Below are positions 6,303 to 10,144 of a stretch of 44,886 nucleotides of DNA, in pieces. The DNA lies in contig JAHFDP010000026.1 of NCBI GenBank assembly GCA_023248955.1, forward strand, positions 1 to 44,886, read 5' to 3'. Under the pieces are notes generated by a model. It was not told where the DNA came from. It saw nothing but the letters and a program-made list of their open reading frames with translations, and did not search any database. Numbering within the stretch: position 1 is the first letter of the stretch; each line of letters opens with the position of its first letter. Source of the stretch: Deltaproteobacteria bacterium (GTDB lineage Bacteria > Myxococcota > Myxococcia > Myxococcales > JAHFDP01). A program made the translations under genes and the position numbers.

Positions 6303-6434
6303 CACGTTGCACAGAAGCTCGCCCTTTGGATGGAAGCGGTCGAGGAGGACGGGCTGCAAGAGGTGCGAAAGATCGCCAGCTTCCATGACGAGCCGCTGAA
6401 AAGCGACCGGCAGGGCCAGCGTTCGATTCGGCTG
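6303..6434 (+). pseudogene. RelE/ParE-superfamily toxin fragment
   Basis: The frame after a TGA at 6300 reads HVAQKLALWMEAVEEDG, LQEVRKIASFHDEPLK, then GQRSIRL. This matches the middle of RelE-type toxins (WxxAVExxGLxEVRKxxGxHDEPLKGxxxGxRSIRLxxxYRAxY). It stops matching at the Leu codon ending at 6434, exactly where an IS21-type fragment takes over in another frame. Both ends of the toxin are missing. The abrupt switch suggests insertion of, or recombination with, the IS-like sequence. Confidence 0.5.
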
Positions 6435-6529
6435 ACAAGCACAACCTCGACACGGTCCCGGTCATCGAGGAGCGCGAAGGAAGTCTGCCGCTGCACGGCA
6501 ACGTGCGCGGCGCCGCTTACTACCACTGA
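6434..6529 (+). pseudogene. Tail of an IS21-type IstA transposase (tentative)
   Basis: The frame from 6434 ends LPLHGNVRGAAYYH and a TGA at 6527-6529, resembling the C-terminal HxNxRGxxYY ending of IS21-family IstA proteins. It lies just upstream of an IstB-like remnant, the normal istA-istB order. It is too short for a firm call. Confidence 0.4.
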
Positions 6530-6601
6530 AAAAAGTTTGCGCCGCCACGGCCTCGCGACGCAGCCGTTTTTTCGAATCCCAAGGACAAAGATCTTGCGCC
6601 G

Positions 6602-6733
6602 GCCGACCTCGTCTGATTCCTCGTCGATGCTGAGTGGCAACACCGCGAAGAACGCAAGCTGGCCGCCCGTCTACGCAACTCGAAACTGGGGCAGTCGGCC
6701 GCGATTGAGGGCATCGACTACGCCCATCCGCAA
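6602..6733 (+). pseudogene. IstB-like ATPase N-terminal remnant with internal stop
   Basis: Reading ADLV, a TGA at 6614, then FLVDAEWQHREERKL and AARLRNSKL, GIDYAHP. The block after the stop matches the helical N-terminal part of IstB helper ATPases (LLxxEWxxREERRLARRLRxARL...LExFDFxxP). The in-frame stop and the loss of the Walker motifs, with replacement by integrase sequence at about 6729, show a dead fragment. Confidence 0.55.
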
Positions 6734-7057
6734 GAACGGCACGTGCACCACGCGGCTCTGGCCCGTGCCGATTCCGCACCACGTCCGCTTCCACGACCTG
6801 CGCCACACGACAGCCACGCTCCTGCTAAAGGCCGGCGTGCCGCTAGAACCGTGCAAAAGATCCTTCGCCACTCGAATCCGGCGCTGACCAGCGAGATTTA
6901 CGGCCATCTCGATATGACGGACATGCGCGCCGGCATCAATCGCTTGAGCTTCGGTCTCGCCGTTGCCGAAAGCGTCGAGCCGCAACTGGTTGCCTGCGGC
7001 GACGGCGGATCGGTTTCCGCGCCGCTTGTTACAAATTTGTTACAGGACGACGATCTC
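6729..7057 (+). pseudogene. Tyrosine recombinase (integrase), truncated and frameshifted
   Basis: One frame gives CTTRLWPVPIPHHVRFHDLRH, then TTATLLLKAGVPL, which carries the catalytic His-x-x-Arg box. The match then continues in another frame as TVQKILRHSNPALTSEIYGHLD, which carries the RH box and the tyrosine nucleophile, followed by MTDMRAGINRLSFG. A single-base loss near 6846 (CTAGAACC where CTAGCAACC is expected) would explain the shift. The N-terminal DNA-binding and core domains are gone, replaced by IstB debris. The last part is 56 bp identical (6875-6930) to a second integrase tail at 12908-12963. The integrase tail leads directly into arm-type repeats and the att repeat, so it is the right end of an element inserted at tRNA-Gly. 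Confidence 0.75.
7026..7044. repeat. Pair of TTGTTACA repeats (candidate integrase arm sites of left element)
   Basis: TTGTTACA occurs at 7026-7033 and 7037-7044, 11 bp apart. The pair starts 35 bp before the 100-bp att repeat. The right-hand element has TTTGCTACCC at the same place (13076 and 13087, also 11 bp apart, 36 bp before its att repeat). The parallel position suggests integrase-binding arm sites with different specificity. Confidence 0.45.
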
Positions 7058-7060
7058 GCA

Positions 7061-7160
7061 CAAACAAAAACCCCGGACCGCATCGAATTACCGAGCGAAT
7101 CCGGGGCTGAATTTGGAGCGGAACACCGGGTTCGAACCGGCGACCTTCGCCTTGGCAAGG
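7061..7160. repeat. Left attachment repeat (100-bp exact direct repeat, copy 1)
   Basis: These 100 bases are identical to 13112-13211. They comprise, on the minus strand, the 3' 47 bases of tRNA-Gly with its encoded CCA, plus the tRNA's terminator hairpin. Identity ends in the anticodon arm, which is typical of tyrosine-integrase crossover sites. This copy has no 5' half of the tRNA, so it is not a tRNA gene. Confidence 0.9.
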
Positions 7161-7273
7161 GTGGTCGAGCGAGTCCAGTGGGTATTTACGTTTCGCAGAA
7201 TTTATCATTCCCCTCTGAAAAGCAGGATTCGGCAGTCCAAGCGTCGCAGGCTCTATCAGCGGAAATCAAGCCG

Positions 7274-7318
7274 TTTGCTACCCAGTTTGCTACCCAGTTT
7301 GCTACCCGATTTGCTACC
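7274..7318. repeat. Four 12-bp-spaced TTTGCTACC repeats (candidate left arm sites)
   Basis: TTTGCTACCC begins at 7274, 7286 and 7298, and a fourth TTTGCTACC begins at 7310. The same word occurs twice next to the right att site (13076, 13087). Direct repeats flanking att cores are characteristic of integrase arm sites or excisionase sites. The run is also open in frame with the following HTH gene, so a coding origin is possible. Confidence 0.5.
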
Positions 7319-7378
7319 GCATCAGCCGCGACAACTGGGTTACGACTGGTCATCGGGGCGAGGGACAATCTACTGCGC

Positions 7379-7534
7379 GTGCGGGACGTGGCCGCGCGGC
7401 TGGGCGTTTCGACCGCAACCGTTTACGCGCTTTGCGAGAAGGGCGAGATCGAGCATTGCCGCATCCGGAATGCGATCCGATTCCGACCGGTAGCCGTTGA
7501 AGCGTATGTCGAGCGGTGCCGAGCAACGAAATAG
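7379..7534 (+). CDS. Excisionase-like helix-turn-helix protein
   Basis: A 51-residue protein if the in-frame GTG at 7379 is used. It reads VRDVAARLGVSTATVYALCE, then KGEIEHCRIRNAIRFRPVAVEAYVER, which is a complete MerR-like HTH_17 fold as found in excisionases and small phage regulators. The frame is open well upstream, with another GTG near 7177, and no good ribosome-binding site is visible, so the start is uncertain. Small HTH_17 proteins near an att site usually act as recombination directionality factors or repressors. Its place just inside the left att repeat and arm-type repeats fits a role in excision, though the partner integrase is broken. The fold is recognisable; the role is inferred. 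Confidence 0.65.
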   Translation: MRDVAARLGVSTATVYALCEKGEIEHCRIRNAIRFRPVAVEAYVERCRATK

Positions 7535-7702
7535 ACGACCGGCTCGTACATGAGGCGAACGAGAGGCCAGAAAAAAACCGCCACGTAAATTCGTTACGAA
7601 TAGGAGTGGGTACCCTTCTGAATTTTTTTAAACTGGCCACGAATTTAGCCCGTGGCTTGAGACGCTCATAAGTGATACTATCAACTACGTGGAGCGGATA
7701 GA

Positions 7703-7900
7703 GTGCCAACATGGAAACGGGGCGGTTACGTCCTCAGGATGTACGAAGGCGATCATCCGCCACTGCACGTTCACGTCTTCAAGGATGGAAAACTCTTGGA
7801 CCGCTACGATCTCGTCAACCTCGAATTCATGGACGGAACCATCGGCCGTCACAGAGGCCGCGTGCTTGCTGCCCTTCGTGCTGAAAAACTGATCGATTGA
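7703..7900 (+). CDS. DUF4160 domain protein
   Basis: A 65-residue protein starting at GTG 7703 (MPTWKRGGYVLRMY), with GGAG at 7691. The EGDHPPLHVHVFKDG block, with its DHPPHxHV core, is the hallmark of the DUF4160 family, small proteins usually found next to DUF2442 proteins and suspected of belonging to toxin-antitoxin-like pairs. The remainder (LEFMDGTIGRHRGRVLAALRA) fits the family length. It is the first gene of a tight plus-strand trio. Its stop at 7898-7900 lies inside the ribosome-binding region of the next gene, which starts at 7909. No biochemical function is established for the family. Family assignment is from the motif. Confidence 0.72.
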   Translation: MPTWKRGGYVLRMYEGDHPPLHVHVFKDGKLLDRYDLVNLEFMDGTIGRHRGRVLAALRAEKLID

Positions 7901-7908
7901 GGTGTCAC

Positions 7909-8262
7909 TTGGCGATAAAGAAAAAGACTGTACAGGAATCCGATTCGGTGGGCGTGGGTGGCGTGGCTCTTCTCGCCAGCATTCTCGGTAACCTGAAACA
8001 ATACGGCGAAAGCGAAGAACTCGGCGCCACCGTCGAAGCGCTTAAACGCCTGGTTGAGGAGTGGCAAATTGCCTACCAAAACCTCGATGCGCAGCTCGCA
8101 CTCGTTCTGCGGACAAACGAAGAACAGAGTCGGCTGATCAATTCGCTGCGAGAGGAAGTACGACGTACTAGCGCACGCTCCAACGCCGCAGAGGCGCGGG
8201 CCTTGTCGGCTGAACTGGGACGCAGGAAATCTGGCGCGCGAGAATCTGGGGCTCACCGATGA
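7909..8262 (+). CDS. Small coiled-coil protein of the DUF4160 module
   Basis: A 117-residue protein beginning MAIKKKTVQES at TTG 7909, preceded by GAGGTG. An alternative in-frame TTG at 7897 overlaps the previous gene and lacks a ribosome-binding site. After a short Gly-rich and hydrophobic stretch (VGVGGVALLASIL) come long amphipathic helices (ATVEALKRLVEEWQIAYQ, LRTNEEQSRLINSLREEVRRT) with heptad-like spacing, suggesting a coiled coil. The C-terminus is basic. I recognise no family. Its stop overlaps the next start as ATGA (8259-8262), so the two are translationally coupled. The middle position between DUF4160 and HTH proteins suggests an adaptor or third component of the module; that is inference. 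Confidence 0.65.
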   Translation: MAIKKKTVQESDSVGVGGVALLASILGNLKQYGESEELGATVEALKRLVEEWQIAYQNLDAQLALVLRTNEEQSRLINSLREEVRRTSARSNAAEARALSAELGRRKSGARESGAHR

Positions 8263-8840
8263 GCCCGGCTTTCGATTTAGGCTTAATTGAACGCAGTCGA
8301 GAGTTGGCCAACGCACTTGCGCCGTCTCCACGAGGGATGGTCACCCGGATTCCCGACCTACGCTCCTGCACCTATCAGCCGGGTTCCGATTCTTTCCGCG
8401 TGCTCTTCGAAGACCTAGTTGCCGCCGACGTTCCCAGAGCCGCGCTCCGAGATGTGGAGAATCGGTCTGTCGTTTCGTGGAGCATCGACGAGTTCAAACG
8501 AGGAGTCGTTGTTGGCCTCGACGACTGCGAGACGACTTCCTTTTCAGCGGAGTTCGCTCGAACTTTTGGTGATCCGAATTACCGGCGATGGGTCGAGGCA
8601 CGGCGCGCGGGGACCGATGCCGACCTCGCCCAACGTGTTGCAGAGCGCGTACAGAAATTGCGCGTAGATAAAGGCTGGTCAGTGGCGGAGCTTGGGCGCC
8701 GCGCTGAGATGGCTGCGCCTAATGTTCACCGCGTGGAGTCTGCGCGACATGTTCCCTCGACACGAACGATGCTTCGCCTTGCGCAAGCATTGGGCGTTCC
8801 GCTCGCCCGACTGGTGCAGGTCTCAGCCCGCGCGCGCTAG
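8259..8840 (+). CDS. XRE-family HTH protein with N-terminal DUF2442-like region
   Basis: A 193-residue protein. Residues about 125-190 form a clear XRE helix-turn-helix (LRVDKGWSVAELGRRAEM, then PNVHRVESARHVPSTRTMLR and LAQALGVPLARLV). The N-terminal 110 residues (RIPDLRSCTYQPGSDSF, RVLFEDLVAADVPRAALRD) resemble DUF2442, the usual neighbour of DUF4160, but the match is weak and partly argued from context. A DUF2442-HTH fusion would be the DNA-binding, autoregulatory component of the trio, as antitoxins of type II systems are. It is coupled by ATGA to the coiled-coil gene. The HTH call is secure; the N-terminal family needs a profile search. Confidence 0.75.
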   Translation: MSPAFDLGLIERSRELANALAPSPRGMVTRIPDLRSCTYQPGSDSFRVLFEDLVAADVPRAALRDVENRSVVSWSIDEFKRGVVVGLDDCETTSFSAEFARTFGDPNYRRWVEARRAGTDADLAQRVAERVQKLRVDKGWSVAELGRRAEMAAPNVHRVESARHVPSTRTMLRLAQALGVPLARLVQVSARAR

Positions 8841-8932: not shown

Positions 8933-9184
8933 TCACGCCTTCGGGGTCAGCTTAATAACGGACCCGTCACACCAGTTGGTCCAATAGACGCTCGTCGAAT
9001 CCACTGCGATTCTGCTGGGTCCGTAGAGCGGCGTACCCGGCCGAACGGAGCAGAGCGCCAACCCTTGAGCTAAAACGATCGGAGAGCCGCCAACGAGCGC
9101 CGCTCTCCTCACAAATCCATCATCCGCGAACCAATAAACGTTGTTGGCGTCCGCCGCTGTCGCCACAATCATTCCAGGTGCCAT
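8933..9184 (-). CDS. Fragment of a beta-propeller (YWTN-repeat) protein
   Basis: An 83-residue frame from ATG 9184 containing ADANNVYWFADDG and PSRIAVDSTSVYWTNWCDGS. This is the blade motif (IAVDxxxVYWTNxxDGxV) of secreted propeller proteins common in myxobacteria. Real members have four to eight blades and a signal peptide; here only about one and a half blades remain and no export signal is present, so it is probably a 5'-truncated remnant. Its ATG overlaps the TGA of the antitoxin gene (TGATG), so it could be translated by coupling. Whether it is a functional small protein is unknown. Confidence 0.5.
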   Translation of the reverse strand: MAPGMIVATAADANNVYWFADDGFVRRAALVGGSPIVLAQGLALCSVRPGTPLYGPSRIAVDSTSVYWTNWCDGSVIKLTPKA

Positions 9185-9510
9185 CAAGCCGAAACAACCC
9201 GAAGATGGCCCCTGCCCTTCGTTCTGGACTTCGCTCCAATAACAATCTCCACATCTCTTCCGAGCGTCGTTAGAAATTTGAGCAAACGGTCCGTCGAAAA
9301 TCCACTGAGCCGACCGCGCAGGAGCGCCGAAACTTTGGGCTGATCAATCCCCAGAAGTGTCGCGGCGGCAGACTGAGTCAGTCCTTTACTGGCAATGATC
9401 TCGGCGATTTTTGCCGTCAGTTCGGCTTTTGCAAGGGCCTCTTCTGGCGCCGGCAGATCCAAATCCTTGAACACGTTTCCGCTACTCGCGGCGTAGCCAA
9501 TCTTCTTCAT
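9184..9510 (-). CDS. XRE-family antitoxin (HigA-like)
   Basis: A 108-residue protein starting MKKIGYAASSGNVF. Residues about 25-95 form an HTH (ELTAKIAEIIASKGLTQSAA, ATLLGIDQPKVSALLRGR, then FSTDRLLKFLTTLGRDVEIV), the usual layout of antitoxins paired with HigB/Gp49-type toxins. Its ATG overlaps the toxin stop as ATGA (9507-9510), giving toxin-first order as in higBA operons. In this family the antitoxin binds and neutralises the toxin and represses the operon. The perfect palindrome upstream of the toxin start (9898-9919) is the likely operator. Confidence 0.85.
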   Translation of the reverse strand: MKKIGYAASSGNVFKDLDLPAPEEALAKAELTAKIAEIIASKGLTQSAAATLLGIDQPKVSALLRGRLSGFSTDRLLKFLTTLGRDVEIVIGAKSRTKGRGHLRVVSA

Positions 9511-9890
9511 TTGGTTTCCCCTTTCAGTTTGGCAATCTGGTCCGCATGAATTTCCCTCGCTCGGCTGAGGCGTTGTTTGATTAACTCCACATCGCCTTGC
9601 GCAGTCCTGATTCCCTTCCGCGACTTTTTCTGAAAAGCGTGCAGAACGTAAACCACGCCAGCCAGTTTGACGGTGTAGACCGCCCGAAACGTGTCCCCGT
9701 CGAAATCATCGACGACTTCAAGGACACCAGCACCGCCGAAACCAGCGAGCGGCTTGGCGTCCAGGTGCTTGCCGCCCGCCTGCGCTAGGTACAGGGCATA
9801 ACCGGCAACTTGCCGCACATCGGCCGGGAACTTTTTCAAGTCCGCCTTGCTGCTTCCAATCCAGATCAGCGGTTTCAGCGAAGGGGCCAT
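9507..9890 (-). CDS. RelE/HigB-superfamily (Gp49-like) toxin
   Basis: A 127-residue protein from ATG 9890. The block KKFPADVRQVAGYALYLAQA, then KPLAGFGGAGVLEVVDDFDG, TFRAVYTVKLAGVVYVLHAF and QKKSRKGI is the standard phage Gp49-like/HigB pattern, including the basic QKKS-KG segment expected near the RNA-cleaving site. Members are ribosome-dependent or free mRNA endonucleases. Family length (100-130 residues) fits. I chose ATG 9890 because the upstream in-frame sequence runs through the operator palindrome and does not look like protein. It forms a two-gene operon with the HTH antitoxin and sits in the island's middle, where it could stabilise the island. Confidence 0.85.
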   Translation of the reverse strand: MAPSLKPLIWIGSSKADLKKFPADVRQVAGYALYLAQAGGKHLDAKPLAGFGGAGVLEVVDDFDGDTFRAVYTVKLAGVVYVLHAFQKKSRKGIRTAQGDVELIKQRLSRAREIHADQIAKLKGETK

Positions 9891-9897
9891 CGGGTTG

Positions 9898-9919
9898 ATT
9901 ATGCTATTTTTAGCATAAT
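9898..9919 (-). promoter_or_regulatory. Operator palindrome of the HigBA-type operon
   Basis: ATTATGCTA (9898-9906) and TAGCATAAT (9911-9919) are perfect 9-bp inverted arms around TTTT. The palindrome ends 8 bp before the toxin ATG. A/T-rich dyads of this kind, with TAGCAT-like half-sites, are common operators of XRE antitoxins. CATAAT in the arm could serve as a -10 element, which would give a very short or no leader. Confidence 0.7.
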
Positions 9920-10144
9920 GGTGCAATAATAAGGGGGCGGTGAGCCCATCCGATGGGATGGGTACGCCCATAGGGAGATCGACGACACCACCGACAACAA
10001 CCGTATTCGGAATATATTTTGGCCCGCGCGCGCGACGGAGTGATCTCACGCGCTCAGCAATGAACTCGCTAGGCCTGAGGTACCCGTTCCAAGACGGTCA
10101 CGAAGCGCACTGCGTGGTCTTGGCACGCTTCCATTTCGGGAGGT
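9920..10144. other. Non-coding interval between toxin operon and XRE regulator
   Basis: No credible gene. The interval holds a 7-bp hairpin, CCCATCC and GGATGGG around GATG (near 9945-9962), without a T-run. Its function is unclear. Confidence 0.35.

Follow-up and report, generated by a model that had tools for sequence, protein, structure and literature searches.

The closest described relatives of the locus analyzed here are two systems in which a protein with a DUF4160 domain is encoded ahead of a dedicated partner. In DhiTA of Dickeya dadantii, the DUF4160 protein inhibits growth, coexpression of the partner abolishes this effect, and the toxin gene comes first in an operon whose promoter the antitoxin represses, with stronger repression exerted by the complex (PMC8198452). 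The PEM system, found on Thermus thermophilus plasmids, is a DUF4160/DUF2442 pair (87 and 92 aa respectively) that raises persistence, and a PEM plasmid without the second ORF yielded no transformants (PMC12724237). The view that DUF4160-DUF2442 pairs are neighbors of unknown function, which was part of the original prediction for this locus, is hence outdated, given the experimental support available for both systems (PMC8198452, PMC12724237). A further point of reference is NE0471 of Nitrosomonas europaea (PDB: 2AUW), an HTH-containing protein (PMC9410881). In the literature searched, we found no description of a DUF4160 form partnered with an HTH protein, or of the palindrome that accompanies it.

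The window, i.e. the whole stretch of 44,886 nucleotides that was analyzed, covers positions 1-44886 of the 47439 on contig C70 of a 3.83 Mb genome. Three tightly packed ORFs on its plus strand together span 7703-8840 (Table 1). The packing is as originally predicted: a GAGGTG motif that would serve as ribosome-binding site overlaps the stop codon of gene 1, and genes 2 and 3 are joined by an ATGA overlap. The frame of gene 2 is also open from a TTG at 7897, and a start at this codon would give a TTGA overlap with gene 1.

Table 1. Features of the three-gene locus, in window coordinates
Feature	Position	Strand	Basis
Gene 1, short DUF4160 protein, 65 aa, candidate toxin (DhiT/PEM family)	7703..7900	+	PF13711, GTG start
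Gene 2, coiled-coil-like protein, 117 aa	7909..8262	+	ORF, TTG start, codon-position GC, codon usage
Gene 3, 193 aa, β domain + XRE HTH, candidate antitoxin/repressor	8259..8840	+	HTH_31, model, N-domain resemblance
Weak candidate operator TGATA-C-TATCA	7673..7683	.	Palindrome search; overlaps extended -10 TGATACTAT at 7673-7681

Just upstream of the operon lies the remnant of a phage-type integrase (window 6330-7534), which is split across two frames and whose second ORF ends in an HTH_17 excisionase-like domain. Just downstream, on the minus strand and convergent with the three genes, is a HigB/HigA-type pair (window 9184-10049; Gp49 74 bits, HTH_37 92 bits). The GC content at 4.5-13.5 kb is 0.51-0.60, as against 0.62 for the window, and the sole Rfam match in the whole window is a tRNA. 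Together, the broken integrase, the HigB/HigA-type pair and the lowered GC content are consistent with a mobile island in decay that gathers toxin-antitoxin genes. As regards the mobile island that had been proposed, the base composition would suit a foreign origin, but the adjoining integrase is a broken remnant.

The assignment of gene 1 to DUF4160 is confirmed by a match to the Pfam model PF13711 (25.4 bits, cut-off 23). Gene 1 also retains all seven residues that are invariant in an alignment of 33 short DUF4160 proteins (D17, H18, H22, V23, H24, V25 and G45); all 33 proteins themselves match PF13711. These short versions, of about 64 aa, are distinguished by their length from the classical DUF4160 proteins of 86-87 aa. 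The nearest relative of gene 1 is the DUF4160 protein of a locus from the same order (L030/L004; 54% identity), and no match was found in plasmids. The structural model of gene 1 (pLDDT 86.7) contains four strands and one helix. When it was compared with solved structures, toxins included, none matched its fold (lowest Foldseek E 1.1, highest VIA Z 4.8), a result that does not show the model to represent a new fold. By analogy with DhiTA, the product of gene 1 is most likely a growth inhibitor. We know of no short-form DUF4160 protein that has been assayed so far.

A profile scan for short DUF4160 proteins across the genomes of about 85,000 species recovered 80 loci, in records titled Acidobacteria, Nitrospira, Gemmatimonadetes, Planctomycetota, Actinomycetes, Deltaproteobacteria and others. 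At 77 of these, the gene for a 64-aa DUF4160 protein is followed within the expected distance by one for an HTH protein of about 155 aa, a count that includes L106, whose HTH frame is some 285 nt behind the match, as well as a few frames broken by stops or frameshifts. In most loci the two genes overlap by 4 nt. The three exceptions are L100, which is near a contig end, L063, which has no recognizable partner, and L030, a diverged version with a helical extension. In the phylum of the window the module is rare, being present in 5 of 193 genomes, that of the window included (family query, E 1e-4). The two-gene unit was also observed on two IMG/VR contigs classed as viral (L170 and L171), in which no exact family operator was seen; a search of plasmids and phage records with one family HTH partner gave no match. 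In the window, gene 1 has the residues characteristic of the short DUF4160 proteins, but the HTH gene does not directly follow it and gene 2 intervenes. We take the window operon to be a divergent branch of this widespread two-gene family that has one additional, orphan gene.

Upstream of the DUF4160 gene, the family possesses a conserved palindrome, GTTAYC-N6-GRTAAC, which with at most two mismatches occurs in 68 of 78 loci as against 20 of 800 control stretches drawn at random from these loci; some of the controls may contain a real site. Some of the loci are close relatives and do not amount to independent events, yet they span many phyla. The first base of the palindrome lies 22-31 nt before the start codon in all 61 loci measured, and precisely 26 nt before it in 30 of them. 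An exact TTGACA precedes a TAACAT-like -10 by 17 nt in 29 of 65 loci, the right arm of the palindrome forming this -10; the control rate for an exact TTGACA at 16-18 nt is 0.1%. The family palindrome (L031-L109) is thus seated between the TTGACA -35 and the -10, and since it lies only about 26 nt from the start codon, the transcripts may be nearly leaderless. In one genome (G163) the exact palindrome is unique genome-wide and found just upstream of the DUF4160 gene. Such placement is as expected if the HTH protein were to repress its own promoter.

The family consensus operator is absent from the window, where the best site at a spacing of 6 (searched over 7481-7712) has mismatches at 5 of 12 positions, and a promoter scan at the operon detected no standard promoter. 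The shorter palindrome listed in Table 1 is a weak candidate operator and could be a chance occurrence. Elsewhere in the genome of the window, an exact GTTATC-N6-GATAAC at C7:24313 was set aside as it falls within ORFs and has no adjoining relative of gene 3.

The C-terminal part of gene 3 (residues about 128-187) is recovered by the Pfam models HTH_31 (44.2 bits) and HTH_3 (33.7 bits). In its AlphaFold model (pLDDT 89.8), a β domain at residues about 34-96 is comprised of strands at 34-40, 45-50, 55-59, 71-76, 82-87 and 92-96. After it come helices, among them a long one (106-138), and then the HTH. The latter superposes on that of C.BclI with Z 12.0 and 1.6 Å over 73 residues, and the XRE HTH of gene 3 is genuine. 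The control proteins C.BclI and C.AhdI share this HTH fold, but have no N-terminal β domain and, going by the titles of their records, control restriction-modification genes.

Gene 3 had been predicted to be a fusion of a DUF2442-like domain to an XRE HTH, and while the HTH stands, the DUF2442 part was not detected by any of three routes and was dropped. PF10387 (DUF2442) has no match in gene 3 and is missing from the families listed for the 36 relatives aligned with it; the one match that the genome contains lies on contig C80, with none at the three-gene locus; and in hhalign comparisons the DUF2442 profile reached a probability of 2-5% against the N-domain of gene 3 or that of the two-gene family. 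A classical, DhiTA-like DUF4160/DUF2442 pair is present elsewhere in this genome (L001, G000:C80:14248-14725). The N-domain of gene 3 was instead aligned with the profile of the family N-domain at a probability of 79% or 52%, depending on direction, against less than 1% for control profiles, and the alignment is collinear over 75-76 columns, including a DPxY motif. An HMM built without the L030/L004 protein scored gene 3 at only 3.2 bits and L030 at 12.8 bits; an earlier link of L004 to the family at 86 bits was discarded as inflated, the same protein (as L030) having been part of the model. These comparisons suggest that the N-terminal β domain of gene 3 resembles the family N-domain weakly, albeit collinearly. 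The fold search with the whole gene 3 model returned HTH domains only among the matches listed, and with these filled by the HTH, a DUF2442-like fold for the N-domain is neither shown nor excluded. NE0471, in which a small N-terminal domain of the DUF2442 type precedes an HTH, was found neither by sequence nor among the fold matches listed, and this excludes nothing.

Several relatives of gene 3 form a subfamily, to which the gene following the L030 DUF4160 gene also belongs. GTTATC-N6-GATAAC is found upstream at L030, and the site shared by the subfamily is TTATC-N6-GATAA (L030, L114 and L115), which in L114 lies inside a perfect palindrome of 30 bp. L114 and L115 are gene-3 relatives with no DUF4160 gene upstream. 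The recognition helix of gene 3 reads MAAPNVHR as against MAPSNYAR in its relatives, and because of this difference a changed operator site for gene 3 is plausible.

Two relatives from the order Myxococcales have a helical part at a place comparable to that of gene 2. The L030 polypeptide has about 75 aa of helical sequence fused ahead of its β domain; the DUF4160 frame of this locus is broken at codon 4, in an assembly of low coverage (2.3x). In L111 (L020), a small helical ORF shares an ATGA overlap with the gene-3 relative, and no DUF4160 gene occurs upstream before the contig ends. Gene 2 was considered as a homolog of these helical segments, and this was rejected since sequence comparison shows no relation to either. 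Its codon-position GC (0.69/0.46/0.58) has the pattern of a gene, and by codon usage its own frame ranks first of six, if only by a small margin over one of the antisense frames (0.117 vs 0.101); gene 2 is thus coding-like, but only modestly so. A search for homologs of gene 2, whose recurrence beside DUF4160 genes the original prediction had proposed as a check, turned up nothing more than weak coiled-coil matches in 193 genomes of the phylum, and nothing in plasmids or viral contigs. Gene 2 therefore fits a place at which helical parts occur in this lineage, yet appears not to be a conserved component. Most simply, it is an accessory helical protein that is translationally coupled, and it may only help the HTH protein to assemble.

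We regard it as probable, if by no means assured, that this operon represents a divergent variant, specific to its lineage, of the two-gene unit of a candidate DUF4160 toxin and a candidate HTH antitoxin-repressor. Under this proposal, the β domain of gene 3 would bind and neutralize the DUF4160 protein, a dimer of the HTH would occupy a palindrome over the promoter, and the DUF4160 protein would act as co-repressor, as reported for DhiTA; upon loss of the HTH protein, the DUF4160 protein would be set free and growth would slow. Toxicity, neutralization, DNA binding and the working of the divergent window copy in the manner of its relatives are all steps that we infer. Several observations are consistent with the proposal: gene 1 belongs to the toxin family of DhiTA and PEM and has the same gene order; the HTH pairing is near-constant and a conserved palindrome lies inside the promoter of the relatives, with fixed spacing to the start codon; and a HigB/HigA-type pair is adjacent. 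Accordingly, the general notion of a toxin-antitoxin-like operon with a DNA-binding partner has held up. The correspondence with DhiTA extends to an overlapping partner in second place and to regulation, the autoregulation reported for DhiTA having its counterpart in the promoter palindrome of the relatives; PEM likewise has DUF4160 first and needs its partner for transformants. In contrast, the window has a short DUF4160 version, an extra gene 2 and, in place of a DUF2442 (PF10387) partner, an XRE HTH with a β domain that is not detectably DUF2442, whereas PEM has two genes only. Points that count against the proposal are the lack of a consensus operator in the window, the weak family match of gene 3, the separate gene between the partners and the shortness of the DUF4160 protein.

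Of the alternatives, one is that the locus is a self-regulated switch rather than a toxin-antitoxin system, in which DUF4160 would sense a small ligand or a metal and modulate the HTH repressor. The invariant DH and HVHV residues of DUF4160 and the failure of the gene 1 model to match any solved fold, toxins included, would agree with this, and the operator and pairing would suit a sensor equally; however, in DhiTA and PEM the DUF4160 protein does harm when its partner is missing (PMC8198452, PMC12724237), and in G163 the operator site is solely at the operon itself, so that no other target gene is seen there. On balance a sensor seems unlikely. Still less credible is a decaying relic, in which genes 1 and 3 once were partners on an island that is now dying, and gene 2 is an ORF that arose by chance or rearrangement. 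The broken integrase next door, the missing consensus operator and the orphan status of gene 2, with its modest coding signal, speak for decay, but all three frames are open, gene 1 retains every invariant residue, the model of gene 3 is confident and the stop-start overlaps are preserved; we rate a relic as the least probable of the readings weighed here.

The three-part system of the original prediction would be a true toxin-antitoxin or defense unit that depends on the coiled-coil protein as chaperone, second antitoxin or sensor; it draws on the tight gene overlaps, the comparably placed helical parts of L030 and L111, and the coding-like composition of gene 2. It is weakened because the coiled-coil gene does not recur and the N-terminus of the HTH protein is not detectably DUF2442; moreover, gene 2 has no relation in sequence to the helical parts of L030 and L111, and two genes suffice, with the HTH gene directly downstream, in nearly all relatives. 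We hence view it as quite improbable. There is a similarly slim chance of a new toxin-antitoxin type with three components, which would need the coiled-coil protein encoded between toxin and repressor for neutralization or sensing. This protein may have been split off from the repressor as an N-terminal helical extension, and related lineages have different helical parts at that position.

Our preferred reading of the locus as a divergent variant of the two-gene unit ties a previously unannotated trio of genes to a toxin family with published activity. Beyond this one locus, the analysis uncovered a widespread two-gene operon, found at 80 loci in many phyla, with a sharply conserved palindrome between the -35 and -10 elements of its promoter.
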